Under the pieces are notes generated by a model that saw only the letters and a list, made by a program, of their open reading frames with translations, was not told the DNA's origin and searched no databases. Positions 2,947 through 16,785 of a DNA stretch of 64,000 nucleotides are shown here, piece by piece. This stretch comes from Candidatus Stoquefichus sp. SB1 (GTDB lineage Bacteria > Bacillota_I > Bacilli_A > Erysipelotrichales > Coprobacillaceae). Each line of letters starts with the position of its first letter. Positions within the stretch are counted from its first letter, which is position 1. The stretch spans positions 744,001-808,000 of the forward strand of contig NZ_LN852696.1 in the NCBI RefSeq assembly GCF_001244545.1, in the 5' to 3' direction. A program made the translations under genes and the position numbers.

Positions 2947-3915
2947 ATGAAAAAGTATTATACAAGAAGTGATTTAGCAATTGAATCTTTAGCTCATGCT
3001 ATACAGGATAAAGATTATAAACATGATGAAAAAAAGGATGGAGATATTACAATAGAGACCTTTGAAATATTACAAAAGAGTGATCTCTATCCACATGAAG
3101 TTGGACAATATGTTGAAATAAGTTTCCCGGATTATCAAAATGTTTCAACAATTGCCAAACATTTTGAACAGCAGTTATCTTTATTTATTAAAGAAAAAAC
3201 AAAAAAAATAGATCCAATGATTTTATTTGTAGGTTTAGGTAATGAAACATTAACAAGTGATGCGATTGGACCAAGAACAATCAAACATCTTCGTGCCACT
3301 CATCATTATCCTTTAGATGAAAGACATCATCAGCAATATTATGATAGTTTGTGTATTGCTCCAGGAGTGATGGCTCATACAGGAATGGAAACGGCTGATA
3401 TTATTAGTTGTCTTGTCAGTGAATATCATCCTGATTTAATTATTGCAATTGATGCATTATGTGCACAAAGTTATGAAAAAATTTGTCATGTGATTCAAAT
3501 GAATAATGTTGGTATTTATCCAGGCAGTGGTATTGGAAATCATCGTAAGAGTATTACTGAATCATCAATGGGTGTACCTGTTATTGCAATCGGTATTCCA
3601 ACTGTTATTCATGTATCTAGTTTAGTCAGTGATGTTTATAATTTATTAGAAGGATATTTTAAAGAATCATTAGATCCTTCAACAGCATTGAAAGTAGGCA
3701 AGCGAAAAAGATATGAAGGACGATTAAATGAGGTACAAAGACGACTTATCTTAGGAGAAATAGGGCAACTAGATGAACAAAAACGTGTTCAACTATTAAA
3801 TGAAGTTTTAAATCCAATAGAAAATCAATTTGTGATGAGTGATAAACAAATCGATTTTGATATTGAAATGATATCTAAAATTTTATCAACAAGCATAAAC
3901 AATTTAAGGTACTAA
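2947..3915 (+). CDS. gpr: GPR endopeptidase (spore germination protease)
   Basis: GPR is made in the forespore as a zymogen and degrades small acid-soluble proteins (SASP) during germination. The 322-residue product shows the family landmarks: an N-terminal 'YYTRSDLAIES' resembling the propeptide cleavage region, 'FVGLGNETLTSDAIGPR', 'APGVMAHTGMET', 'IIAIDALCA' and 'PGSGIGNHRKSI...GVPVIAIGIPT'. The aspartates in the SDAIGPR and AIDA segments are those expected of this atypical aspartic protease. The length is slightly below the roughly 370 residues of Bacillus GPR. Its usual downstream partner spoIIP is not adjacent but about 14 kb away, beyond the polysaccharide locus. Confidence 0.95.
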   Translation: MKKYYTRSDLAIESLAHAIQDKDYKHDEKKDGDITIETFEILQKSDLYPHEVGQYVEISFPDYQNVSTIAKHFEQQLSLFIKEKTKKIDPMILFVGLGNETLTSDAIGPRTIKHLRATHHYPLDERHHQQYYDSLCIAPGVMAHTGMETADIISCLVSEYHPDLIIAIDALCAQSYEKICHVIQMNNVGIYPGSGIGNHRKSITESSMGVPVIAIGIPTVIHVSSLVSDVYNLLEGYFKESLDPSTALKVGKRKRYEGRLNEVQRRLILGEIGQLDEQKRVQLLNEVLNPIENQFVMSDKQIDFDIEMISKILSTSINNLRY

Positions 3916-3941
3916 AAAGGTGTTCATGAGTGAACACCTTT
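3916..3941. terminator. Bidirectional terminator between gpr and the switch
   Basis: A perfect 11-bp stem (3916-3926 with 3931-3941) has a 4-nt loop, with an A-run on the left and T-rich bases on both exits. It ends gpr and would also stop transcripts running leftward from the promoter at 3986-4013. Confidence 0.85.
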
Positions 3942-3957
3942 AATTATACAGATTAAT

Positions 3958-4174
3958 TTCGCAGAACTTCTTATTCTGCGAAAAAATTATAACACATATA
4001 GGTTAAAAATCAACCGCAAACGTTATATTTATCATCTAAAACTGTCATAAAAATATCATAATTTGTTTGAAATATGATGATTTTGTCTAAAATCAGGATG
4101 GCTATACTGAGTTTTATTTATTTGAAATACATATTAAATAATCTGTATTTTCTTAGAATAAGAAGTTCTGCGAA
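3958..4174. repeat. Inverted repeats bounding a putative invertible promoter segment
   Basis: The 20 bases at 3958-3977 are the exact reverse complement of 4155-4174. Continuing inward, five of the next seven positions also match, giving arms of about 27 nt with 25 matches. The enclosed stretch of roughly 165-180 bases has no gene. The left arm is also itself palindromic (TTCGCAGAA, 7-nt spacer, TTCTGCGAA). Such arms around a promoter, in front of a polysaccharide operon, are the hallmark of phase-variable DNA inversion. No recombinase gene is visible in this window, so an invertase would have to act from elsewhere. The geometry is seen directly; inversion is inferred. Confidence 0.7.
3986..4013 (-). 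promoter_or_regulatory. Sigma-A-type promoter pointing away from the polysaccharide genes
   Basis: On the minus strand TTGATT (4008-4013) and a perfect TATAAT (3986-3991) are 16 bases apart. Transcription would begin near 3979, in the left repeat arm, and run toward the gpr terminator, where there is no minus-strand gene. If the segment between the repeats were flipped, the boxes would map to about 4119-4124 and 4141-4146 on the plus strand, with a start near 4153, about 45 nt ahead of the first loaP-like gene. No equally good plus-strand promoter is seen in the present orientation; the best is a poor TTGAAA/TATTTT pair at 4122-4151. Confidence 0.65.
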
Positions 4175-4198
4175 GTAAAATACAGGGAGGAATGACAT

Positions 4199-4702
4199 AT
4201 GAATTGGTACATTGTGCATGTCAAGTCAGGAAAATGTCAGGAAATTATTGATTATTTGAATACTGATCAGAATATTTATGCCTTTTTACCAAAAATGGAA
4301 AAATGGTTCTCTAATTCTCATATTAAAGAATTTCAGACTTCCTATATGTATCCTGATTATATTTTTATAAGAACATCTTTAAATCAAGAAGAGTTTAAAA
4401 TGAAGTATGATGATTTCTTTCGCTCAATTCGCCAGATGGCTGATTTATTAGAATATGATGGAATGATTGCATTAACATCAGTTGAACAAATGCTTTTAGA
4501 GAAGATGTTTGATAATCAGGATGTGATTAAACATTCTACAGGACATATTGTTGATTCTCATTTAATGATCAATGAAGGACCTTTAATTGGTTTGGAAAAA
4601 AGAATCAAGAAAATAGATAGGCATAAAAGAGTAGCTATTCTAGATTGCAATATTTTTGGTAGGATCATGAAAGTTCCTTTAGAGGTTATCAGCAAATCAT
4701 GA
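4199..4702 (+). CDS. LoaP/NusG-family transcription antiterminator, first copy
   Basis: The 167-residue protein begins MNWYIVHVKSGKCQEII, the NGN-domain opening of specialised NusG paralogues. It contains 'TSYMYPDYIFIRTSL' (equivalent to the 'P.FPGYIFV' strand) and ends with a KOW-like segment 'GPLIGLEKRIKKIDRHKR' near residues 128-145. In Firmicutes, LoaP proteins of this size bind elongating polymerase and carry it through terminators in long polysaccharide or natural-product operons. The start follows GGGAGG. It is the first gene after the putative promoter switch and overlaps the next gene by four bases (ATGA), so the two are translated together. Confidence 0.85.
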   Translation: MNWYIVHVKSGKCQEIIDYLNTDQNIYAFLPKMEKWFSNSHIKEFQTSYMYPDYIFIRTSLNQEEFKMKYDDFFRSIRQMADLLEYDGMIALTSVEQMLLEKMFDNQDVIKHSTGHIVDSHLMINEGPLIGLEKRIKKIDRHKRVAILDCNIFGRIMKVPLEVISKS

Positions 4703-5205
4703 ATTGGTATGTTTTATATTGTCAAAGTTTAAAAGCAGAGAGATTATGTCAAACCTTTAATAAGAAACAAGATATTTATGCTTTTATACCTCAATATGAA
4801 TATTATCGGAGAGATATAAAGGATTATGCGATTAAACCTATGTTCCCTGGATATATCTTTGTACAGACAAAACGGAATCAGATAGAATTTGATTCCGTCA
4901 TATTACATATGTATGAAGAAAAAGATGGTCTTATTAAACAATTAAGATATGATGGTACAACAGCTTTAAGTCATGAAGAAATTCATATGTTTCATCAATT
5001 ACTAGATGATGAAGGAATCTTAAGAATGTCCCAAGCATTTATAAAAGAGAAAAAAGCAGTTGTTTATAAAGGACCATTAATGAATTTTGAAGAAAATATT
5101 ATTAAAGTAGATAAGCATAACCAGTTTGCCTATTTAGATTTAAAATTCTTAAATCGAAATATAAAAGCAGGATTATGTGTAGACATGCAAAATAATGAAG
5201 TATAG
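4699..5205 (+). CDS. LoaP/NusG-family transcription antiterminator, second copy
   Basis: The 168-residue paralogue of the preceding gene has the same layout: MNWYVLYCQSLKAERL, 'IKPMFPGYIFVQTKRNQ', and a KOW-like 'GPLMNFEENIIKVDKHNQ'. The 'MFPGYIFV' strand is closer to canonical NusG than in the first copy. In the first protein the KOW keeps the usual GLE tripeptide, whereas here it is NFE, so the two may differ in RNA or polymerase contacts. It may act as a heterodimer partner, a second specificity or a decoy; none of these can be decided from sequence. A strong terminator follows directly. Confidence 0.85.
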   Translation: MNWYVLYCQSLKAERLCQTFNKKQDIYAFIPQYEYYRRDIKDYAIKPMFPGYIFVQTKRNQIEFDSVILHMYEEKDGLIKQLRYDGTTALSHEEIHMFHQLLDDEGILRMSQAFIKEKKAVVYKGPLMNFEENIIKVDKHNQFAYLDLKFLNRNIKAGLCVDMQNNEV

Positions 5206-5235
5206 AGTTTGATTTATCACCTATGTGGATTATTT

Positions 5236-5283
5236 GAATATAGTTTCCTTTACTTGGGGTAGGGGAAACTATATTCTTTTTTT
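5236..5283 (+). terminator. Strong terminator between the antiterminator genes and the sugar genes
   Basis: A perfect 13-bp stem (5236-5248 with 5264-5276) has a 15-nt loop and is followed at once by seven T residues (5277-5283). It stands inside the presumed operon, ahead of the aminotransferase. It is the obvious target for processive antitermination by the LoaP-like proteins encoded just upstream. Confidence 0.88.
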
Positions 5284-5305: not shown

Positions 5306-6439
5306 ATGTCACATATCTTTTTGGCTTCACCACATATGAGTGATGAAGGCTATGAAAAAGAATTTATTCAGGAAGCATTTGATACCAACTGGATTGCTCC
5401 TTTAGGTAAGAATGTCAATGAGTTTGAAAAAGAAATGGTTGAGAAGCTTCATGCTAAAGCGGCAGTCGCCTTGTCCTGTGGAACAGCTGCTATTCATATG
5501 GCTTTAAAAAGTATAGGGATTAAACAGGATGATATCGTTTTTTGTCAGAGTCTGACTTTCAGTGCTTCGGCTAATCCTATCACCTATGAAAAGGCAATTC
5601 CAGTATTCATTGATAGTGATGAATCTTGGAATATGTCTCCAAGAGCATTAAGAAAGGCTTTTGAGAAATATAGGAATCATCTGCCTAAGGCAGTCATTGT
5701 TGTTCATCTTTATGGATTAGCAGCAAAGATAGAAGAAATCAGAGACATATGCAATGAATACAATGTTCCTCTTATTGAGGATGCAGCAGAATCATTAGGA
5801 ACAACAGTCAATGGGAAGTATACAGGTACATTTGGAGATTATGGAATTATTTCCTTCAATGGAAATAAGATCATTACATCATCAGGTGGAGGTATGCTTC
5901 TTTTTAATACAGAGGATGGCAGTGAGAAAGCAGAAAAGGTATTGTTCTGGTCAACACAGGCAAGAGAGAAAGCCAGACATTATGAACATAAGGAGATAGG
6001 CTATAACTATCGCATGAGCAATATTGTCGCAGGAATAGGCAGAGGACAGCTGAAAGTACTGGATAAACGTATAGGCAAGAAAAGAGAAATCTATGAATAC
6101 TATCAGAAGGAACTGTCAGAACTACAAGGTTTAACCCTGATGCCAAGAGATTTATATCAGTCCTATTGTAACTGCTGGCTGACAACAATCCAGCTGGATG
6201 AGAGAAGTCCAGTCAGGCCTTTAGATATCATGATAGCGTTAGAGGAGAATGATATAGAATCAAGACCGGTATGGAAGCCAATGCATATGCAGCCAGTTTT
6301 TAGTGAATGTGATTATATTGATGACAGTCAGACATCACAGTCACTGTTTGAAAAAGGAGTATGTCTGCCAAGTGATACAAAGATGAATGAAGAAGACCTG
6401 CAGAGAATCTGCAAGATTATAAAGGGAATGTGGAAGTGA
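5306..6439 (+). CDS. DegT/DnrJ/EryC1/StrS sugar aminotransferase (PglE-like)
   Basis: The 377-residue PLP enzyme has the DegT family pattern: '[16 protein letters not shown]', '[11 protein letters not shown]', '[14 protein letters not shown]', '[12 protein letters not shown]' and '[14 protein letters not shown]', the Lys of the last being the likely PLP-binding residue. With the two genes that follow, it fits conversion of UDP-4-keto-6-deoxy-GlcNAc to the 4-amino sugar in UDP-bacillosamine synthesis. The ATG at 5306 follows GGGAGG; an in-frame upstream extension would run through the terminator hairpin and is rejected. It overlaps the next gene by one base. Codons here (AGA, ATA, CAG) differ from the surrounding chromosome. 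Confidence 0.88.
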
Positions 6440-7053
6440 TGTATCGAAAGTATATCAAGAGGATCCTTGATTTCATATTATCATTAGCAGCAATCATCAT
6501 ACTGATTCCAGTACTACTGATAGTTGCCATTCTGGTCAGAACAAAACTGGGGACACCTGTTATCTTTAAGCAAGAAAGGCCAGGGCTGAATGAAAGGATA
6601 TTTACATTATATAAGTTCAGGACAATGACAGATGAAAGAGATGAGGAAGGAAATCTACTTCCAGATGAAATACGTCTAACAAAGTTTGGGAAGCTGCTGA
6701 GATCAACAAGTCTAGATGAGCTGCCTGAACTTTTTAATATACTTAAAGGTGATATGTCAATAGTAGGACCTAGACCTTTACTGGTTAGATATCTACCCTT
6801 ATACAACGAACATCAGAAACATCGCCATGATGTGAGACCAGGCTTTACAGGCTATGCACAGGTCAATGGCAGAAACAGTATTACATGGGAGGATAAGTTT
6901 GATCTGGATGTAGAGTATACACAAAGAGTATCACTGCTGATGGATATAGTAATCATCCTGAGAACGATAAAGGTCGTTCTATTGAGAGAAGGGATTTCCA
7001 GTGAGACATCATCAACCATGGAAGAATTCAGAGGGACATACTATGAAGGATAG
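6439..7053 (+). CDS. Initiating phosphoglycosyl transferase (PglC-like)
   Basis: This 204-residue monotopic membrane enzyme transfers a sugar phosphate to undecaprenyl phosphate and so starts the repeat unit. There is one N-terminal re-entrant hydrophobic helix (residues about 8-30), then '[21 protein letters not shown]', '[19 protein letters not shown]', 'VGPRPLL' and '[17 protein letters not shown]', all diagnostic of the bacterial sugar transferase domain. The D-E pair in SLDELPE is the catalytic dyad. The small size matches PglC, not the larger WbaP type. The ATG at 6439 is chosen over in-frame GTGs a few bases upstream because it gives a one-base overlap with the aminotransferase stop. 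Confidence 0.92.
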
Positions 7054-7663
7054 AATCATGATTATAGGAGCAGGTGGCCATGGCAAGGTAGTTGCAGATA
7101 TAGCCAAACAGAATGGATATAAAGAAATACTATTTCTGGATGATGATATTTCCAGAAAGACAAATGGGAGATATCAGGTAGTAGGAACAGGCAATGATAT
7201 TGACAGATATAAAGAGAAATATGATTTTTTTGTTGCAGTAGGCGACAATGACACCAGAGAGAAAATAACAGTGAAGCTATCAGAAATGAACATTGAACAG
7301 CCAATCCTTATACATCCATCAGCAACGGTAGATGAAACAGTGAAGATAGGAGAAGGAGTGGTTATCATGGCAAATGCAGTCATCAATGCAGATTCAAAGA
7401 TAGGCAGAGGATGCATTATTAATACTTCAGCTACTGTTGATCATGACTGCATTATTGATGATTATGTTCATATAAGTCCAGGAGCGCATATTGCAGGAGG
7501 CGTTCAAATTGGTAAAAAGGCATGGATAGGAGTAGGCAGTACAATTATCAATAATGTGAGTATCTGTGAAAAATGCATAGTAGGTGCAGGAAGTGTAGTG
7601 ATAAAGGATATAGCAGAATATGGAACGTATGTAGGTTCACCAATAAGGAAGGTCATAAGATGA
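7043..7663 (+). CDS. PglD/NeuD-type sugar O/N-acetyltransferase
   Basis: The 206-residue protein has an N-terminal Rossmann-like segment '[18 protein letters not shown]' that binds the UDP-sugar. A left-handed beta-helix of hexapeptide repeats follows ('[20 protein letters not shown]', '[20 protein letters not shown]'). The His in '[16 protein letters not shown]' is the catalytic base position in PglD. It probably acetylates the 4-amino group to give UDP-di-N-acetylbacillosamine. The ATG at 7043 lies 7 bases after GAGGG and overlaps the upstream gene by 11 bases. The next gene overlaps it by four. Confidence 0.88.
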
Positions 7664-8781
7664 AGAAAATGTTAATGATAGCATCTGTTCCATCCATGAT
7701 TGGCCAGTTCAACATGAATAACATTCAGATATTAATGAATTTAGGATTTGAAGTAGAAGTGGCATGTGACTGGGGTGACAGAAGTGTATGGACAGATGAA
7801 AAGGTAAATGATTTAAAGGAAAAACTGAATGCTTTAGATGTAATATATCATCAGATAGATTATTCAAGGTCACCATTCAGTATAGGCTGCCATATAAAAT
7901 CCTATAAACAAACATTAAAACTGCTGAGAGAAAACAGTTATGAATTTGTTCATTGTCATACACCCATAGCAAGTGTAATAGCAAGACTAGCATGTAAAAA
8001 GACAAATACAAAAAGCATATATACAGCACATGGCTTTCATTTTTACAAAGGGGCACCAATAAAGAACTGGGTAATCTTTTATCCAATAGAGAAATGGCTA
8101 TCAAAATATACAGATGTTTTAATAACAATTAACAAAGAGGATTACAATCGAGCAAAAGAAAAATTTAAGATGAAACAATTAGAATATGTACCAGGAGTGG
8201 GAATAGATATTTCAAAGTTTCAAATAAAAAATTTCAATAGAGATGAATATAGAAGTAGATTGGGGCTAAAATCTGATGATTTTGTAATATTATCTGTAGG
8301 AGAACTTAATAAAAATAAAAATCATGAAATAGTCATTAATGCAATAGCAAAACTAGGATATTCAAATATTAAATATTTAATAGCAGGACAAGGAGATTTA
8401 GATCGATATCTGATAGAATTGGCAAATCATTTGGGTATAGGAGATAAAGTAAATATATTAGGTTTTCGAAAAGATATACCAGAACTTTTAAACAGCAGTG
8501 ATTTGTATATATTACCATCATTAAGAGAGGGATTAAATGTGTCATTATTGGAAGCAATGGCTTCTGGGTTACCTTGCATTGGGAGTAAGATAAGAGGAAA
8601 TGTTGATTTAAAAAATCTATATTTATTTAAAGTGAATGATGAAGAGGATTTAGTGTCAAAAATCAATAGTGTCTATCAGAGAAGAAAAAGAATATCTAAT
8701 AACAGTGAACTTGAAAAATTTTCTGATAAAACCATAAATAATCAATTATCTAGAATATATGAAAAGTTAATTATTAAATAA
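7660..8781 (+). CDS. Glycosyltransferase family 4, probable second-sugar transferase
   Basis: The 373-residue GT-B enzyme begins [18 protein letters not shown]. It has the N-domain 'VHCHTPIASVIARLA', 'TAHGFHFYKGAP' and 'IEKWLSKYTDVLITIN', and the C-domain donor site 'LREGLNVSLLEAMASGLPCI' with the E-x7-E pair. The ATG overlaps the acetyltransferase stop (ATGA) and is preceded by AGGAAGG. This position, right after a PglC/PglD pair, suggests addition of the second sugar to the bacillosamine-like lipid intermediate; the donor cannot be read from sequence. Base composition changes within the gene: the first third resembles the upstream module and the rest is much more AT-rich, suggesting a recombination boundary. 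Confidence 0.88.
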   Translation: MKKMLMIASVPSMIGQFNMNNIQILMNLGFEVEVACDWGDRSVWTDEKVNDLKEKLNALDVIYHQIDYSRSPFSIGCHIKSYKQTLKLLRENSYEFVHCHTPIASVIARLACKKTNTKSIYTAHGFHFYKGAPIKNWVIFYPIEKWLSKYTDVLITINKEDYNRAKEKFKMKQLEYVPGVGIDISKFQIKNFNRDEYRSRLGLKSDDFVILSVGELNKNKNHEIVINAIAKLGYSNIKYLIAGQGDLDRYLIELANHLGIGDKVNILGFRKDIPELLNSSDLYILPSLREGLNVSLLEAMASGLPCIGSKIRGNVDLKNLYLFKVNDEEDLVSKINSVYQRRKRISNNSELEKFSDKTINNQLSRIYEKLIIK

Positions 8782-8909
8782 CTATTAAGGATAATTGAAA
8801 ATAATTAATAAAGAGAAAAGTGAACAATGACTGTAAGAGCCAAGATAACATAATGTATAAAATGGATTTTAGAAGTAAAGGGTTTAGTGATGTAGAGAAT
8901 ATGGTTTAT

Positions 8910-8945
8910 AAAATATCTGTTTGAATTAGGATATCAGATATTTTT
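8910..8945 (+). terminator. Internal terminator-like hairpin in a 240-base gap
   Basis: A 10-bp AT-rich stem (8910-8919 with 8935-8944) ends in TTTTT. The 8782-9023 gap that holds it has no supported gene, only a 23-codon open stretch without a ribosome site. It may be a further site where LoaP-assisted readthrough is needed, or a remnant of a lost gene. Confidence 0.45.
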
Positions 8946-9023
8946 ATTGATTAGTTAATGAAAAATTGAAGATGAATTATTTGATAGAACGTTATAGAGA
9001 AAGAATACAGAAGAGGTGATAAG

Positions 9024-9752
9024 ATGAATATAGCATTAATTTTTGCGGGTGGAACTGGTAAGAGAATGCATACGAAAGGGAAACCAAAACAGTTTTTAGA
9101 ATTAAATGGAAAACCTATTTTAATTCATACAGTTGAAATATTTGAAACACATGATCAAATTGATTGGATCTATATAGTATGCATTAGTGAGTGGATAGAA
9201 TATTTAAGTGAATTGATAAAAAGATATCAATTAAAAAAGGTAAAACTTATTATTCCTGGTGGAACTACAGGACAAGAGTCAATAAGAAAAGGTATATATG
9301 CAATAAAAGATAATGAGAATATAGATTTAAAAGAAATAACAGTATTAATTCATGACGGTGTAAGACCTTTGATAGATCATGAAACAATCACAAAGAATAT
9401 AGAGTCTGTTGAGAAATATGGGAGTGCAATTACTGTTGCTCCTGCAAATGAAACTATTATAGAAACAAATGAATTAAATTATATTGAAAATGTTTTAGAT
9501 AGAGATATTTGTCGAGTTGCTAGAGCACCTCAGAGCTTTAAATTTAATGATATTTATGAGGTTCATAAAAAAGCTTTGCAAGAAGGTAAAGATACAATGA
9601 TTGATTCAGCAATGTTAATGAAATACTATGGATTTAATTTACATTGTATTAATGGACCTATAGAGAATATAAAAATAACCACACCTTCTGATTTTTATAT
9701 TTTCAGAGCAATACTTGAATCACGTGAAAATTCTCAAATATGGGGGTTATAA
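9024..9752 (+). CDS. IspD/TarI-type cytidylyltransferase
   Basis: The 242-residue enzyme has the IspD/TarI nucleotidyltransferase signature: 'FAGGTGKRMHTKGKPKQF', 'LNGKPILIHTVEIFE', 'HDGVRPLID' and 'ITTPSDFYIFRAI'. These enzymes join CTP to a polyol phosphate (methylerythritol, ribitol or related). Inside a polysaccharide locus and followed by a short-chain dehydrogenase and a LicD protein, a CDP-alditol (for example CDP-ribitol) product is more likely than an isoprenoid role. The start follows GAGGTGAT. It is the first gene of the very AT-rich central part of the locus. Confidence 0.82.
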   Translation: MNIALIFAGGTGKRMHTKGKPKQFLELNGKPILIHTVEIFETHDQIDWIYIVCISEWIEYLSELIKRYQLKKVKLIIPGGTTGQESIRKGIYAIKDNENIDLKEITVLIHDGVRPLIDHETITKNIESVEKYGSAITVAPANETIIETNELNYIENVLDRDICRVARAPQSFKFNDIYEVHKKALQEGKDTMIDSAMLMKYYGFNLHCINGPIENIKITTPSDFYIFRAILESRENSQIWGL

Positions 9753-9754
9753 TA

Positions 9755-10807
9755 ATGAATTTAAATGAAAAAATTCTATATAATGATTTTGATACAATTA
9801 CAATCAATTCTCATTTGAATCTAGAATGCTTAGATAATTCATCAATATTAATTACAGGTGCAACAGGATTGATAGGTTCATTGCTTGTCAAATATTTACT
9901 TTATTATAATTACAAAAATGATAAAAACATAAAAATAATTACTTTAGTAAGAGATATAAAAAAAGCAACAGAAATGTTTGAGAGATATCTCAATAATAAA
10001 TGTTTAACCATCTTACAGAATGATATCCAAAATACTATAAGCTATAATAAGAAAATAGATTATATAATACATTGTGCAAGCATTACTGATTCAAAAACTA
10101 TGTATAAATACCCAAAAAAAACGTGGTTGACATCGTTTATAGGCACAAAAAATGTACTTGATTTCGCTGTTTCAAAAAAAGTGAAGTCATTTATTTATAT
10201 ATCATCTATGGAGATGTATGGTCAAATTAGTTCTAGCAGTAAAGTGAAAGAAAATGAAATTGGATATATAGATATATTATCTCCTAGAAGTAGTTATTCT
10301 GAAGGTAAAAGAGCTTGCGAAAGTCTTAATATTGCATATATGATCGAAGATAATCTGCCGGTTAAAATTATAAGATTATCTCAAGTGTTTGGGGCAGGTG
10401 TAAGTTATAATGACACTAGAATTTATTCTCAATTTGCGAAAAGTATTATAAATCATAAAAATATTGTGCTAAATACTAGTGGCGAGACTGTTGGAAACTA
10501 TTGTTATACTGTTGATGCAATATTAGGAGTTTTATTTGTGCTTCTTTATGGAGAAAATGGTGAAGCATATAATGTTTGTAATGAAGAAAATTCTATGTTA
10601 ATTAAAGATATGGCAAGTTTAGTTGTAGAAAATTTTGGTTCTGGAAAGTTAGAAGTCGAAATTCATAATGATAACGAACAGAAAATATATGCACCAATAA
10701 ATAAGATGTATTTAAGTAGTAAAAAATTGGAGTCTTTAGGATGGTTTCCATCTACAAATTTAAATACTATGTATTTAAGATTGTTTCAATATTGGGGGTA
10801 TAAATAA
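9755..10807 (+). CDS. NAD-dependent epimerase/dehydratase (extended SDR)
   Basis: The 350-residue protein has the Rossmann motif 'ITGATGLIGSLLVKYLL' at about residues 28-44 and the catalytic 'YSEGKRACE' (YxxxK) near residue 180, preceded by 'ISSMEMYG' (Ser). This is the extended SDR fold that modifies nucleotide sugars or polyols. The gene directly follows the cytidylyltransferase (two bases apart, ATG at 9755 behind GGGGGT), so it probably makes or modifies the same activated unit. It does not look like a UDP-GlcNAc 4,6-dehydratase of the PglF type, so it is not an obvious supplier for the aminotransferase upstream. Confidence 0.8.
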   Translation: MNLNEKILYNDFDTITINSHLNLECLDNSSILITGATGLIGSLLVKYLLYYNYKNDKNIKIITLVRDIKKATEMFERYLNNKCLTILQNDIQNTISYNKKIDYIIHCASITDSKTMYKYPKKTWLTSFIGTKNVLDFAVSKKVKSFIYISSMEMYGQISSSSKVKENEIGYIDILSPRSSYSEGKRACESLNIAYMIEDNLPVKIIRLSQVFGAGVSYNDTRIYSQFAKSIINHKNIVLNTSGETVGNYCYTVDAILGVLFVLLYGENGEAYNVCNEENSMLIKDMASLVVENFGSGKLEVEIHNDNEQKIYAPINKMYLSSKKLESLGWFPSTNLNTMYLRLFQYWGYK

Positions 10808-10858
10808 AAAATGAATATAAGTATATTTATTTTATTACTAGGAAGGAATAGAGTTTAA

Positions 10859-11776
10859 ATGAATAGTTTAAATTTAAGAGAAATTTATAGTAATCTTTCT
10901 GTAAAAGAACTATCTGATAAAGAGAAAAAAGAAATAAAAGAAATTTTGCTTCAAATGTTAGAAGATATAGTCAAATTATGTGAGGATAATAATATTAACT
11001 ACACTTTAGGTGGAGGAACAGCATTAGGATGTATACGTCATCATGGCTTCATTCCATGGGATGATGATATAGATATAAATGTATATAGAATGGACTATTT
11101 GAAACTTCTAAAATTAATAGATGAAACGTTTAGTGATAAATATGAAATTAATGCTCCTAATTATAGTTTGCATCCCAAAAATAGATTTGCTAAAATTTAT
11201 AGAAAACACACTACTTATATACAAATTAATGACATAAATAACTTAAATCCTAATGGTGTTTTTATAGATATTTTCCCAATAGAGCATGTTCCTAATAATA
11301 AGCTTTTATATTTATTACATGGTATTTTAAGTACTTTACTAATGTTTATTGCAAGTTCTGTTTATGGACGTAAATATGAAGTGCAAGACATACGTTTGGT
11401 GATCAAGAAAAATAATAAATATTTATATTATTTTCGAAATATTATAGGAGTAGTTTTTTCATTTTTACAACCTGAAAAGTGGTTTTGTATAGTTGATAAA
11501 GTAAATAGTTTAATAAAAAAAAGTGATTATTTGAGTTCACCAACAGGAAGAAAACACTATTTTGGTGAAAAAATACTTTATAGCAATTATTTTCCTGCAG
11601 TAGATGGGAAATTCGAAAATCTAAAAGTTAAATTACCTAATAATTATGATGTTTATTTAAAAAATTTGTTTGGAGATTATCTAACTATACCTAAAAAAGA
11701 AGATAGAGAAAGGCATTTTATCGTTAATTATCAAAATCAAATCAATTTTAAGGAGAACTCTAATGATGGAAAGTAA
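10859..11776 (+). CDS. LicD-family phosphotransferase
   Basis: The 305-residue protein contains the LicD core 'YTLGGGTALGCIRHHGFIPW' followed by 'DDDIDI' at about residues 41-66. The Asp residues there coordinate metal in this nucleotidyltransferase-like fold. LicD proteins attach phosphocholine or alditol phosphates to surface glycans; the family also includes the fukutin/FKRP ribitol-phosphate transferases. With the CTP-using enzyme two genes upstream, transfer of a CDP-activated alditol phosphate to the polymer is a reasonable reading. An AGGAAGG site lies about 12 bases before the ATG. The gene overlaps the next by 14 bases. Confidence 0.85.
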   Translation: MNSLNLREIYSNLSVKELSDKEKKEIKEILLQMLEDIVKLCEDNNINYTLGGGTALGCIRHHGFIPWDDDIDINVYRMDYLKLLKLIDETFSDKYEINAPNYSLHPKNRFAKIYRKHTTYIQINDINNLNPNGVFIDIFPIEHVPNNKLLYLLHGILSTLLMFIASSVYGRKYEVQDIRLVIKKNNKYLYYFRNIIGVVFSFLQPEKWFCIVDKVNSLIKKSDYLSSPTGRKHYFGEKILYSNYFPAVDGKFENLKVKLPNNYDVYLKNLFGDYLTIPKKEDRERHFIVNYQNQINFKENSNDGK

Positions 11777-12911
11777 GATAGCATTTTTTACATTTGAGAG
11801 TAGTGTTGTTCCTGGTGTCTCGAAATCATTAATAAATATAATTGATCATCTATCTATTGACTATAAACCGATTGTTATTTTACATAAAAGTGGTGATATT
11901 GAAACTGAATTACTAAAACGGAATATTACATATTATATTGTGAAGTCATACACATACACAAAGAAAATAAATGAAAATAAATTTCTTTCTATTTGTAAAT
12001 ATATTTATAAACGAATTTATAATTTTTTTCAATTTAATAAAGTAAAAAAAATCATGAATATTGAAGAAATAAAAATAATTCATCTTAATAAAATTACATG
12101 TTCGTTTGGAGCAGAAGTGTCAATAAAATGTAAAATACCTTTCATCACACATATCAGAGAATTTCTAGAAGAGGATCAAAGTAGAGAATTTATAAATAAA
12201 AAATACTGTTATAATCTAGTTAAACATTCATATAAGATATTAGCTATTTCAAATTCAATCAAGAATAAATACGAAAGAATTTTAAATACGCCTATTGAAG
12301 TAATTTACAATGGAGTAGATGTAAATAATTATATTATTCATAATCATGAACTTTTTAAAAAAAATAAAATAAAAATGCTTATTGTAGGAAGAATCACATC
12401 TGAAAAGGGACAATTAGATGCTTTGAAAATCGTAAAGAAAATACTTGAATTAAACTTTCCTGTTAGTTTATGTATTGTTGGAGAAGTACAAGATATATCA
12501 TATTATAATTCATTATTATATTTTATTGATAAACATGCCTTAAATGATAGTGTGAATATTTTACATCATACAAATAATATAAAAGAAATATATAATACAA
12601 ATGATATATGTATTGTATGTTCAAAAAAAGAAGCATTTGGTCGAATTGTTATTGAAGCAATGTTAGCTGGTATGGTTATTGTTGCACATAATCAAGGAGC
12701 TATGAAAGAGTTAATTAATATTAATGAGAATGGATATCTATACAATAATATTGATGAAGCAACTGAAATTATTAAATATATATATCAAAATAATTCAATT
12801 CATAAGCATATGGGAAAAGTTAATGTAAATTATGCAGCACAAAATTTTTCCATCGAAAATACAGTTAATAAAATTGAAAATGTATATTCGCAATTATTGG
12901 GTGAAATATAA
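11763..12911 (+). CDS. Glycosyltransferase family 4
   Basis: The 382-residue GT-B enzyme has an N-terminal 'KIAFFTFESSVVPGVSKSLI' and the C-terminal donor region 'KEAFGRIVIEAMLAGMVIVA' with the E-x7-E pair, then 'NQGAMKELININENGYLY'. It is probably a cytoplasmic transferase extending the lipid-linked repeat unit. The start follows AAGGAGA; a second ATG directly after the first (11766) is equally possible. Very AT-rich codon use (ATA, AAA, AAT) matches its immediate neighbours and contrasts with both ends of the locus. Confidence 0.86.
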   Translation: MMESKIAFFTFESSVVPGVSKSLINIIDHLSIDYKPIVILHKSGDIETELLKRNITYYIVKSYTYTKKINENKFLSICKYIYKRIYNFFQFNKVKKIMNIEEIKIIHLNKITCSFGAEVSIKCKIPFITHIREFLEEDQSREFINKKYCYNLVKHSYKILAISNSIKNKYERILNTPIEVIYNGVDVNNYIIHNHELFKKNKIKMLIVGRITSEKGQLDALKIVKKILELNFPVSLCIVGEVQDISYYNSLLYFIDKHALNDSVNILHHTNNIKEIYNTNDICIVCSKKEAFGRIVIEAMLAGMVIVAHNQGAMKELININENGYLYNNIDEATEIIKYIYQNNSIHKHMGKVNVNYAAQNFSIENTVNKIENVYSQLLGEI

Positions 12912-14035
12912 TGGAAAAGTTATTTATTAATTTATTGGAAACAATAGTATTCGATTTTATACTAATTATTCTTTTTTATTATCTAAATAAATTTGTTTTA
13001 AAAATCAATCAAAAAAAATTTTTAATTGGATATTACATTTTTATAATAATCATTATATTTCTTACAAGTATCAGATTGAATGTTGGTTCTGATTTTCAAA
13101 ATTATGTTAATATATCTAATTTTGTTAGATCTTATTTTAATGATAATAAAGAAATTATTTTGTATTATAATATTCAGTTTGGATTTCCTATTTTAAGCAA
13201 ATTTATGTTTTTTATTTCTGAAAATATGTACTCTTTTTTATGGATAGTATCCATAATTATTTATTGTTTTGAATTTAAGTATATACAAAAGCATTTTAAA
13301 TCAAGTAATGAAAGATTTATCGCTTATATATCATTTGTGGTATTTGGATTTTTTTCAATATCATTAAATATTTTAAAACAAGCTATGGCAATGTCAATTA
13401 TGTTATTTGCATATGATGCATTAATTGAGAAAAAATATTCCAAGTTTTTAATTATTACTTGTATAGCTACAATTTTTCATATTTCTGCTTTAGTAGGAGC
13501 AGTTTTGTACTTAGTATCTTTAAAAATCAAATTTAATAAAAAGAATCTATATTGTTCTGTTTTAATAGGAATAATATTAAATTTTTCTTATAGATTTCTT
13601 ATACCTATTATTGTTAACAATATTTCAATTTTAAGTAGATATACTAAATATATGAATGATTTAGAAAATCTTGAGAGAGTATGGAGGCCTTTATCAGTAC
13701 TTTCTTATGTAGTATTGTTTTTTTTATTGCTTAGATTAATTATGAATGATAAAAAAACTTGCATAAGTAATTATCAAGTTTTATCTTTGTTAATGCTAGG
13801 GATACCTATAAGTATAATGTCTATAGATAATTGGGTAATTAATAGAATTGCTTTATATGCTTATCAATTTATTATTATAATATTTCCTATATATGTTAAA
13901 AACAACTTTAATAAAAAGAAATTGTTATTAGTAGGAACCGTCTTATTTATATGGTATTGTCAATTTAATATTATTGGAGGCAACAATAATACTCACTCAT
14001 ATGACACATATATAACAAATGAAAAAAATAATTAA
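12911..14035 (+). CDS. EpsG-family membrane protein, probable polysaccharide polymerase (Wzy role)
   Basis: The 374-residue protein has about nine to ten hydrophobic segments and few soluble loops. The early 'TSIRLNVGSDFQNYVNIS' matches the EpsG/Wzy-like motif (R-x-G-x-D-x-x-x-Y) placed after the second helix. Such proteins join repeat units outside the membrane. No other polymerase candidate is present in the locus, which supports this role. It overlaps the upstream transferase by one base (TAATG). Composition is extremely AT-rich even for this window, as is usual for the variable part of capsule loci. Confidence 0.75.
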   Translation: MEKLFINLLETIVFDFILIILFYYLNKFVLKINQKKFLIGYYIFIIIIIFLTSIRLNVGSDFQNYVNISNFVRSYFNDNKEIILYYNIQFGFPILSKFMFFISENMYSFLWIVSIIIYCFEFKYIQKHFKSSNERFIAYISFVVFGFFSISLNILKQAMAMSIMLFAYDALIEKKYSKFLIITCIATIFHISALVGAVLYLVSLKIKFNKKNLYCSVLIGIILNFSYRFLIPIIVNNISILSRYTKYMNDLENLERVWRPLSVLSYVVLFFLLLRLIMNDKKTCISNYQVLSLLMLGIPISIMSIDNWVINRIALYAYQFIIIIFPIYVKNNFNKKKLLLVGTVLFIWYCQFNIIGGNNNTHSYDTYITNEKNN

Positions 14036-14050
14036 CTGGAGGAAGTATTA

Positions 14051-15217
14051 ATGAAAATAGCAGTCGCAGGAACAGGTTATGTAGGATTAAGTATCGCTAC
14101 ATTATTGGCACAGCATCATGATGTTGTTGCTTTAGATATTATCAGGGAAAAGGTGGATATGATCAATAATCATATCTCACCTATTCAGGATAAAGAAATT
14201 GAAGATTATTTAAAAAATAAAGATTTAACACTAAAAGCAACTCTTGATAAAGATGTTGCTTTTAAAAATGCAAAGTTTATTGTCATCAGTACACCTACTA
14301 ACTATGATGAATCAAAGAACTACTTTGATACTTCTAGTGTAGAGGAAACCATTGAATCTGTATTAGAGATTAATCCAGAGGCTATCATGATTATCAAGTC
14401 AACTATACCTGTTGGATTTACGAAACAGATGAAAGAGAAGTATGGAATAGAGAATCTGATCTTCTCACCTGAATTCCTAAGAGAAGGAAAGGCATTATAT
14501 GATAATCTCTATCCTTCAAGAATTGTTGTGGGAGAAAAGTCAGAAAGAGCAAGAGAGTTTGCTAATCTACTGGCAGAAGGAGCCATCAAGAAGGATATAC
14601 CAGTACTGTTTACAGACAGTACAGAAGCAGAAGCAATCAAGCTGTTTGCCAATACATATCTGGCATTAAGAGTCTCATACTTCAATGAACTTGATACCTA
14701 TGCAGAGATGAAAGGCCTAAATACAAAAGATATCATAGAAGGAGTATGTCTTGATCCAAGAATAGGAAGTCATTACAACAATCCATCATTTGGATATGGA
14801 GGATACTGTCTGCCAAAGGATACAAAGCAATTAAAGGCAAACTATCAGGATGTACCAGAGAACCTCATCAGTGCAATAGTGGAAAGCAACAGAACAAGAA
14901 AAGATCACATAGCACAGGAAATCATTGATAGAGGGCCTAAGGTAGTAGGAATCTATAGACTGACAATGAAGAGTGGGTCGGATAACTTTAGGGCGAGTGC
15001 AATACAGGGCATCATGAAGAGAATCAAGGCAAAGGGAATAGAGGTTGTTGTATATGAGCCAACACTAAAGGAAGAAGAATTCTATAAGAGCAGAGTAATT
15101 AAAGATTTAGAGGAATTCAAGAAGATAAGCGATGTGATAGTTGTTAACCGAGTGACAGAAGAGATAAGAGATGTAGAAGATAAAATCTATACAAGGGATT
15201 TATTTAAGAGAGATTAA
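14051..15217 (+). CDS. ugd: UDP-glucose 6-dehydrogenase
   Basis: The 388-residue enzyme oxidises UDP-glucose to UDP-glucuronate (or a similar UDP-hexose to its uronate) with two NAD. It has the N-terminal Rossmann motif '[18 protein letters not shown]', '[10 protein letters not shown]', '[20 protein letters not shown]' with the binding Glu and Arg, and the catalytic Cys in '[16 protein letters not shown]' near residue 258. It therefore supplies a uronic acid for the polymer. The ATG follows GGAGGAAG. From here to the Rpn gene the composition is again richer in G+C than the central genes. Confidence 0.93.
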
Positions 15218-15287
15218 AAAAGTAATAAAATCAATCTATCAGTAAAGACTTGAGATATTTTCAGGGAAGAGAAGGAGGTGATGTGCT

Positions 15288-16691
15288 ATCAGTAGTGTAA
15301 AGAAGAATTTTATTTATAATGCAATGTATAATGTCTTGGCTCTCATTATCCCACTGATTACAACTCCCTACATCTCAAGGGTCATGGGTGCAGAGAATAT
15401 AGGAATATACTCATATGCCTATTCTATTGCTTCCTATTTTGGTCTGTTTATACTTCTGGGGCTGAAAAACTATGGGAATAGAACAATTGCAGGGGTTAGG
15501 GATGATAGACAGAAGCTATCTCAGACATTCTGCAGTATATATGCAATGCAGCTGATCATGGGAGTTATTGTGATTCTCATATATACTGCATATATCATTC
15601 TGTTTGCTCAGAATAGAATAATGGCACTTGTACTCATGATTTATCTTGTTTCTGTAATGCTGGATATCAACTGGTTCTACTTTGGGCTGGAAGAGTTTAA
15701 GCTGACAGTGACAAGAAATACAGTTATCAAGATTGCCAATACAATCTTATTATTTGTCTTTGTCAGATCGGCTGATGATATCTATATCTATGCACTGCTG
15801 CTGGTTATGGGTATGATAGTCAGTCAGGTCATCCTGTGGGGACTGCTGAAGAGATACATATTCTTCATAAGACCAAGTCTATCTGACATAGTGAAGCATA
15901 TTAAACCCAATCTTGTCTTGTTTATACCAGTTATCGCCATCAGCATCTATAATACAATGGATAAGATCATGCTTGGAATGATGAGCAGCATGACAGAGGT
16001 AGGATATTATGAAAGCTCGTTTAAATTAACAACCATACCAGTGATGGCAGTAACCTCACTTGGAACGGTCATGCTTCCAAGGATGAGCAATCTGATAGCC
16101 AATGGGAATCATGCAGAGGCTAAAAGATATATACAGAAGTCACTGATTGTCTCTCTGTTTCTATCAGCCCCTATGGCGCTGGGATTAAGTGCAGTTGTCA
16201 ATGAATTTGTACCTGTATTCTATGGACAGGGGTATGAAGCCTGCAAAGCAATTATTCCAGTGCTGGTTATGTCATCCATATTTGTTGCATGGGCTAATGT
16301 GATTAGAACACAGTACCTGATTCCAAATAAGCAGGATAGGATATATATTATATCAGTATTTTTGGGAGCTATTGTCAATGTAGTTATTAATTATCTGTTG
16401 ATACCTAGATATCAGGCATTCGGGGCAGGAATAGGAACATTGGCTGCAGAAATGACAGTCTGTCTGTATCAGACATTCATGGTAAGAAAGAGTATAAAGG
16501 TAACAAAATATTTCATACAGTCTCTGTCGTTTGTTGTATTTGCAGCTGTCATGTATTTCATACTGATGTTGATACCAGATATGTATAGCCCTTTAATGAT
16601 GCTATGTGCAAAAGTAGTCATTGGAGGAGTTGTGTATATGTCATTATCCTACATATACTACAAAGCAATTCTGATAAGAGTTTTTAAATGA
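15288..16691 (+). CDS. Oligosaccharide flippase (Wzx/MATE-like), unusual start codon
   Basis: This multi-helix protein (about 12 segments) of the polysaccharide transporter family moves lipid-linked repeat units across the membrane. 'MYNVLALIIPLITTPYISRV' and 'GIYSYAYSIASYFG' match flippase N-termini. Homologous proteins normally begin about 12 residues before the first ATG at 15324, with a basic '-SSVKKNFIYN-' stretch that is present here in frame. An ideal ribosome site (GGAGGTGAT, 15274-15282) lies just ahead, but the codon at proper distance is ATC (15288), and no in-frame ATG, GTG or TTG exists before 15324. I therefore place the start at 15288 with reserve; it gives 467 residues. If only the ATG at 15324 works, the product is 455 residues and has no ribosome site. 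Confidence 0.8.
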   Translation: MSSVKKNFIYNAMYNVLALIIPLITTPYISRVMGAENIGIYSYAYSIASYFGLFILLGLKNYGNRTIAGVRDDRQKLSQTFCSIYAMQLIMGVIVILIYTAYIILFAQNRIMALVLMIYLVSVMLDINWFYFGLEEFKLTVTRNTVIKIANTILLFVFVRSADDIYIYALLLVMGMIVSQVILWGLLKRYIFFIRPSLSDIVKHIKPNLVLFIPVIAISIYNTMDKIMLGMMSSMTEVGYYESSFKLTTIPVMAVTSLGTVMLPRMSNLIANGNHAEAKRYIQKSLIVSLFLSAPMALGLSAVVNEFVPVFYGQGYEACKAIIPVLVMSSIFVAWANVIRTQYLIPNKQDRIYIISVFLGAIVNVVINYLLIPRYQAFGAGIGTLAAEMTVCLYQTFMVRKSIKVTKYFIQSLSFVVFAAVMYFILMLIPDMYSPLMMLCAKVVIGGVVYMSLSYIYYKAILIRVFK

Positions 16692-16762: not shown

Positions 16763-16785
16763 AAGTACCTTTCGAGGTACTTTTT
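16763..16785 (+). terminator. Terminator of the polysaccharide operon
   Basis: An 8-bp perfect stem (16763-16770 with 16775-16782) is closed by a stable TTCG tetraloop and followed by T residues. It marks the end of the operon that begins with the loaP-like genes. Confidence 0.8.

Follow-up and report, generated by a model that had tools for sequence, protein, structure and literature searches.

The question raised by this locus is how transcription enters a long surface polysaccharide operon that is preceded by a conspicuous inverted repeat. The DNA analyzed here (the window, 64,000 nt) derives from the gut bacterium Candidatus Stoquefichus sp. SB1 (Bacillota_I; Bacilli_A; Erysipelotrichales; Coprobacillaceae; assembly GCF_001244545.1, contig NZ_LN852696.1, positions 744,001–808,000 of the forward strand). 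A preliminary description had interpreted the repeat as the boundary of an invertible promoter, sequenced in its OFF state and served by an invertase encoded elsewhere, an interpretation that fits the seven equivalent switches in the genome, the homologues in both orientations, and the recombinase on another contig described below. It had overlooked the palindromic nature of the arms with their 7-bp spacer, six further switches in the genome, and a structured RNA plus terminator after the NusG-like genes. We consider it very probable that the segment at 3958–4174 is an invertible promoter, and assign a probability of roughly 0.85 to the explanation as a whole, in which promoter inversion is combined with a second, RNA-level gate.

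The repeat bounding the segment comprises 20 perfectly matched bases, or 25 of 27 when extended, exactly as previously described, and the enclosed stretch, given earlier as about 170 bases, measures 167 bp between 25-bp arms. With a limit of 600 bp, no other perfect inverted repeat of ≥20 bp exists in the 64-kb window (0 in 50 shuffles), and the chance expectation for a 25-mer with ≤3 mismatches is 0. The left arm (3958–3982, plus strand), with the sequence TTCGCAGAACTTCTTATTCTGCGAA, is identical to the right arm (4150–4174, minus strand) at 23 of 25 positions, and each arm is itself palindromic. In the repeat and site-pattern searches, the left recombination site is composed of the half-sites TTCGCAGAA and TTCTGCGAA flanking the spacer CTTCTTA, and the right site contains the identical spacer in inverted orientation, with two changed bases in its inner half-site. 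Two inverted half-sites with a short spacer between them are the layout used by tyrosine recombinases, and the arms conform to it with 9-bp half-sites flanking a 7-bp spacer (9 + 7 + 9), within the expected spacer range of 6–8 bp and identical in both sites.

Between the inverted repeats, as in other invertons, lies a predicted promoter of the sigma-A extended −10 type (TTGATT-16-TGtTATAAT, reading from 4013 to 3986 on the minus strand), which stands against the left arm and faces away from the operon, in agreement with the preliminary description; the end of its −10 box lies 28 nt in from the outer edge of the segment. The promoter is not significant by a scan of 3700–4500 alone (4 found versus 5.2 expected), and its position is kept in the homologous loci. 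The bidirectional terminator said to lie in its path was likewise recovered, as an intrinsic terminator hairpin between gpr and the switch (3916–3941) that folds on both strands (−14.1 kcal/mol and z −4.3; z −5.7 on the minus strand, where U's follow). This hairpin was found by folding, since the terminator scan of 3700–4500 counts its U's as stem and passes over it. Once the segment is flipped, the start point would be about 46 nt ahead of the ATG of the first NusG-like gene, against an earlier estimate of about 45. The ON-form transcript would begin inside the arm, and its 5′ end would fold into a hairpin whose loop is specific to the locus (−10.6 kcal/mol in the window). The idea that this arm hairpin is an antiterminator target was set aside, because it is indistinguishable from the recombination symmetry and because a better RNA candidate is present after the second NusG-like gene.

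The further arm copies envisaged earlier exist as a layout and not as an exact sequence: the exact arm core has no other copy anywhere in the genome, but a genome search with CGCAGAA-N7-TTCTGCG retrieved the window pair and additional pairs, from which scripted pairing by spacer gave seven site pairs (the window, L064, L065, L066, L067, L068, and L069). Within each of the seven pairs the spacers are identical in inverted orientation, and all seven differ between pairs (CTTCTTA, TAATCTA, TATACTA, CTCAATA, CAATTAA, CTTTATA, and TACAATA). Tyrosine recombinases require spacer identity, and it is therefore to be expected that such private spacers restrict exchange to one locus. Downstream of all seven switches are NusG-like genes and then genes for polysaccharide synthesis, among them homologues of the priming sugar transferase, DegT, and PglD; in L067 the first NusG gene is missing and the second (NusG B) begins after 316 bp. 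All seven switches are OFF in this assembly. The one additional NusG-like locus detected in the same genome encodes a single true LoaP (L070 7218–7769, C4:592218–592769; 187.7 bits by the NCBI model) and has no invertible segment.

The comparison was extended to the family, represented by one genome per species. The pattern TCGYAGAA-N7-TTCTRCGA is present in 11 of 43 family genomes, among which the window's own genome was possibly left out, and the reversed-pattern control in 0 of 43; relatives of the first NusG-like protein (NusG A) occur in Candidatus Stoquefichus massiliensis, Beduini massiliensis, Thomasclavelia saccharogumia, T. cocleata, and Longibaculum muris, among others. Many of the family segments are about 1.1 kb long and enclose a tyrosine recombinase of 310–325 aa (named recJ here), and in most segments of the recJ type 28–29 nt separate the outer edge from the end of the −10 box. 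Among 29 loci with readable promoter direction, 24 are OFF (promoter directed away from the NusG genes) and 5 are ON (L075, L080, L133, L167, and L181), with L133, scored ‘unclear’ by script, being counted as ON by virtue of a TGaTATATT box at the 29-nt position and a reversed recJ remnant. The direction of the internal recJ agrees with that of the promoter, being co-directional in 13 OFF loci and reversed in 3 ON loci, although these loci are related and not independent. The most direct record of inversion is provided by L181 and L185, close relatives from different assemblies, whose flanks are 96% identical on the same strand, whereas the intervening 1144 bp, measured arm to arm, align in the opposite orientation (96.2% identity), and the breakpoints coincide with the arms. 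Segments of this class, carrying promoter and recombinase, therefore flip as a unit. Such a record contradicts, for this class, the notion that the inverted repeat is a mere RNA hairpin or terminator resembling a switch by chance; a single arm can indeed fold as a hairpin, but seven spacer-matched pairs were found against zero in controls, and we regard this notion as scarcely credible.

For the window copy itself, inversion would follow by homology. Orientation among related genomes bears on the earlier proposal in two ways: homologous loci do occur both ways, but the orthologue in the nearest species, Ca. S. massiliensis (L072), is likewise OFF, and the inverted form of the window locus was not found. 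In this orthologue, a germination protease gene lies upstream as in the window, NusG A is 80% identical, and the segment is 1213 bp long with recJ inside; the window copy keeps the promoter and end regions only. One might accordingly suppose that the window switch once inverted and is now fixed OFF, the locus having fallen silent through loss of the internal recombinase and decay of a half-site, as the recombinase retained in the orthologue, the two mismatches in the right inner half-site, and the OFF state in both species would suggest. However, five other short switches in the genome also have no recombinase in the segment, a mismatch is found at the same half-site place in other loci, including the orthologue, and the arm spacers are still identical, with promoter and NusG genes intact. 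Moreover, a full-length related recombinase with the same half-site is still encoded in the genome. A permanently locked switch thus seems improbable to us, and a segment still able to invert is preferred.

A segment still able to invert calls for a recombinase, which the window segment itself does not contain; the enzyme therefore probably acts in trans. The search of the full genome for such a gene gave 16 Phage_integrase matches (PF00589). The recombinase inside the switch on contig C5 (L068 10690–11640) is intact (316 aa) and is the only one of the genome's recombinases that groups in the tree with the switch-borne recJ enzymes; the L065 switch is adjoined by its own recombinase, of a sister group in the tree. 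The C5 enzyme displays the residues of its family (R in GLRIGE, HxxR in HSLRH, LGH, and Y in NLYVH), and its own site shares the half-sites of the window. Being the only PF00589 protein of the switch-borne clade in the genome, and having a site with the window half-sites, it is the best trans candidate, comparable to the single global invertase of Bacteroides fragilis (PMC12632263), and we think it likely that it acts on the window switch, judging from sequence relationships. The C5 switch (L068 7185–11669) has a 4.5-kb segment in which two genes for IS30-like transposases are accompanied by a truncated copy of the recombinase and one or more N's; it may represent an IS insertion that was duplicated in part when the assembly was joined.

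The genes that the inverted promoter would serve begin with two NusG-like genes on the plus strand, NusG A (4199–4702), the first operon gene, and NusG B (4699–5205), both matching Pfam NusG. The designation ‘LoaP-like’ in the preliminary description holds in so far as the LoaP model NF033641 is the best-matching family for both and they are LoaP-related; however, their scores (106.6 and 106.9 bits, respectively) are below the curated NCBI cut-off of 125. The first gene does not belong to the UpxY family (NF033644, 38.6 bits versus a cut-off of 100), and the second gene is not an UpxZ-type inhibitor, that position being held by the other NusG-like protein. A DegT/DnrJ/EryC1 aminotransferase gene identified by Pfam follows (5306–6439, plus strand). 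Its more probable start is the ATG at 5306, which is preceded by GGAGG and lies past a terminator, whereas a reading frame from the listed GTG at 5225 would run through that terminator. The polysaccharide genes then extend over 6430–16691 (plus strand, Pfam) and encode a priming sugar transferase, a PglD-type acetyltransferase, glycosyltransferases, an IspD/TarI-type cytidylyltransferase, an epimerase, LicD, EpsG (polymerase-like), a UDP-sugar dehydrogenase, and a Wzx-type flippase. With a terminator-like hairpin at its probable end (16763–16782, plus strand, terminator scan), the operon from 4199 to about 16691 appears to be a complete Wzx/Wzy-type surface polysaccharide locus.

What is new here is a conserved RNA situated after the tandem NusG-like genes, composed of a covarying hairpin and then a hairpin carrying GGGGTAGGGG. 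Most recJ-type loci bear this two-part element directly 3′ of NusG B, and recB-type loci are without it. In the window, hairpin I (5200–5226, plus strand; covariance model R1, 26.8 bits) overlaps the stop codon of NusG B and is a candidate recognition RNA for the NusG-like proteins. Its lower stem has six pairs and is variable, its upper stem has three, and an asymmetric loop lies between the two. In an independent alignment of 14 sequences, 92.1% of the cells are paired, as compared with 37–53% when the partners are slid; with 21 distinct sequences, the alignment of which was fitted to the model and so leans towards it, the values are 94.7% and 39–56%, with 45 double changes versus 14.9 in shuffles. 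All six pairs of the lower stem show two-sided changes. Hairpin II (5235–5283, plus strand; folding and alignment) contains GGGGTAGGGG or GGGGTAAGGGG as a conserved motif, and the conservation of GGGGTA(A)GGGG goes further than pairing requires. In the window, hairpin II is itself the intrinsic terminator before the polysaccharide genes (5235–5276 and then T7, about −23 kcal/mol), whereas other loci have a separate terminator after the element. Across the family genomes, the hairpin I model matches almost solely the ends of NusG genes, including loci outside the training set (L244 and L245), and in 1.1 Mb of loci all matches (25/25) are at NusG ends; the only convincing matches in the window genome are after NusG genes. 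No Rfam model matches the element. The ops element read by RfaH is GGCGGTAG, of which GGGGTAGGGG is presumably reminiscent. Elsewhere, a lone hairpin I plus GGGTAAGGGG element stands behind an apparently decayed NusG B end (L242 6850–6875; G021:C29:18850).

These observations, together with gene order and LoaP homology, argue for an antitermination gate at 5200–5283, which we hold to be the better-supported interpretation, if with less assurance than the inversion. Alternatively, the inversion might be genuine but unaccompanied by a second gate; the hairpins 3′ of NusG B would then be an ordinary terminator or the 3′ end of an mRNA, and NusG A and B would act elsewhere. The terminator could merely separate NusG A and B from the capsule genes, and the RNA is unlike the UNCG-type hairpin known from LoaP targets (PMC12691694), UNCG-type loops being absent from the aligned hairpins, which have UUUA/UAAC/UAAU-like loops. 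Yet hairpin I is unnecessary for a terminator and strongly covaries, GGGGTA(A)GGGG is kept where pairing does not demand it, and every occurrence of the element in the genome follows a NusG pair. In addition, LoaP acts at just such a hairpin and terminator: that of Bacillus velezensis, in the difficidin operon, needs a leader hairpin and acts on the terminator that follows (PMC12691694). An ordinary terminator thus appears unlikely, although it retains appreciable weight, and an antitermination gate is favored.

In the proposed mechanism with two gates, a tyrosine recombinase would join the two palindromic sites and flip the unit between them, the strand exchange resulting in inversion because the 7-bp spacers match in inverted orientation. 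The enzyme would be supplied in trans, the candidate being the one carried within the C5 sister switch, and a private spacer would keep recombination within each of the seven switches. In the OFF state, as sequenced, the promoter would fire leftward into the bidirectional terminator; in the ON state after inversion, transcription from it would cross the arm and proceed into NusG A and B, and the transcript would reach the hairpin and terminator just past them. At this second gate, NusG A and/or B may load at the RNA/DNA element, allowing the polymerase to pass into the capsule-type genes. We propose that most of the seven switches are backed by such an RNA-level gate.

Mpi of Bacteroides fragilis is a serine recombinase, and invertible promoters with NusG-family antiterminators for combinatorial capsule switching are a hallmark of gut Bacteroidales. 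In B. fragilis, several capsule loci lie behind invertible promoters (7/8 loci invert), with a single global invertase and a NusG-family antiterminator as the first gene (PMC12632263), and invertible promoters adjoin UpxY in Bacteroidota (PMC11892184). The Stoquefichus design strongly resembles this capsule system in operation, with multiple capsule loci behind invertible promoters (seven switches versus 7/8 loci) and a NusG-family first gene, but is not a member of it, lacking the UpxY/UpxZ features: tandem LoaP-like proteins take the place of UpxY plus UpxZ, a tyrosine recombinase often carried inside the flipping segment takes that of Mpi, and locus-specific spacers and a conserved RNA plus terminator after the NusG genes are added. 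With LoaP of B. velezensis it shares a NusG paralogue, a long biosynthetic operon, and an RNA hairpin followed by a terminator (PMC12691694), and differs in the sub-threshold LoaP scores, the non-UNCG loops, the location of the antiterminator genes upstream of the RNA on the same transcript, and the control by DNA inversion. In Eggerthella lenta, DNA inversion also shifts capsule genes relative to a LoaP gene, but by megabase inversions that move whole clusters (PMC13174815), in contrast to the small promoter segment of Stoquefichus. The cps1 inverton of Akkermansia muciniphila, although of another phylum, likewise switches a capsule by an invertible element; the text of that report mentions no NusG-family factor or recombinase (PMC13343947).

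A literature search gave no invertible promoter with LoaP-like genes in Erysipelotrichia, in line with the preliminary description, although such absence is weak evidence. In a survey of invertons across a defined gut community, the median reported for its Bacillus-like Firmicutes was zero (PMC11892184), and such switches may therefore have been missed. On balance, we lean towards the view that Erysipelotrichia independently evolved a regulon for capsule switching that resembles that of Bacteroides and has two gates. At the first, promoters would be inverted by a tyrosine recombinase that often rides in the segment and acts in trans on several switches, which their private 7-bp spacers keep apart. 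At the second, tandem LoaP-like proteins would read an antitermination RNA not described before (covarying hairpin, GGGGTAGGGG hairpin, and terminator), which lies on their own transcript just downstream of their genes. If this is true, Gram-positive Erysipelotrichia of the gut (Stoquefichus, Thomasclavelia, Beduini, and Longibaculum) have arrived at the same two-layer logic with a different set of parts, suggesting strong convergent selection, behind which phages or host immunity may stand. The compact RNA with its covariation support would offer a handle for testing LoaP-like targeting.

The family genomes also contain related arrangements. In a second switch type (L065 5166–7073, L073, and L167), the recombinase lies outside the segment, a single NusG-like gene follows, the promoter is 44–46 nt from the edge, and there is no RNA element; it is OFF in two genomes and ON in the third. 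The recombinase-in-segment module further occurs in other contexts (L155 9074–10247, L156 1244–2413, L158 9394–10574, and L138 7763–9145), namely, polysaccharide genes without NusG genes, a DUF6591/DUF4839 protein, and a position ahead of a 1087-aa protein, with half-sites of the AAGATT type in L155, L156, and L158. Genome G022 contains 16 recJ relatives. Finally, a T-box leader (Rfam RF00230) is located at L130 16166–16395, near the end of a Thomasclavelia saccharogumia contig.
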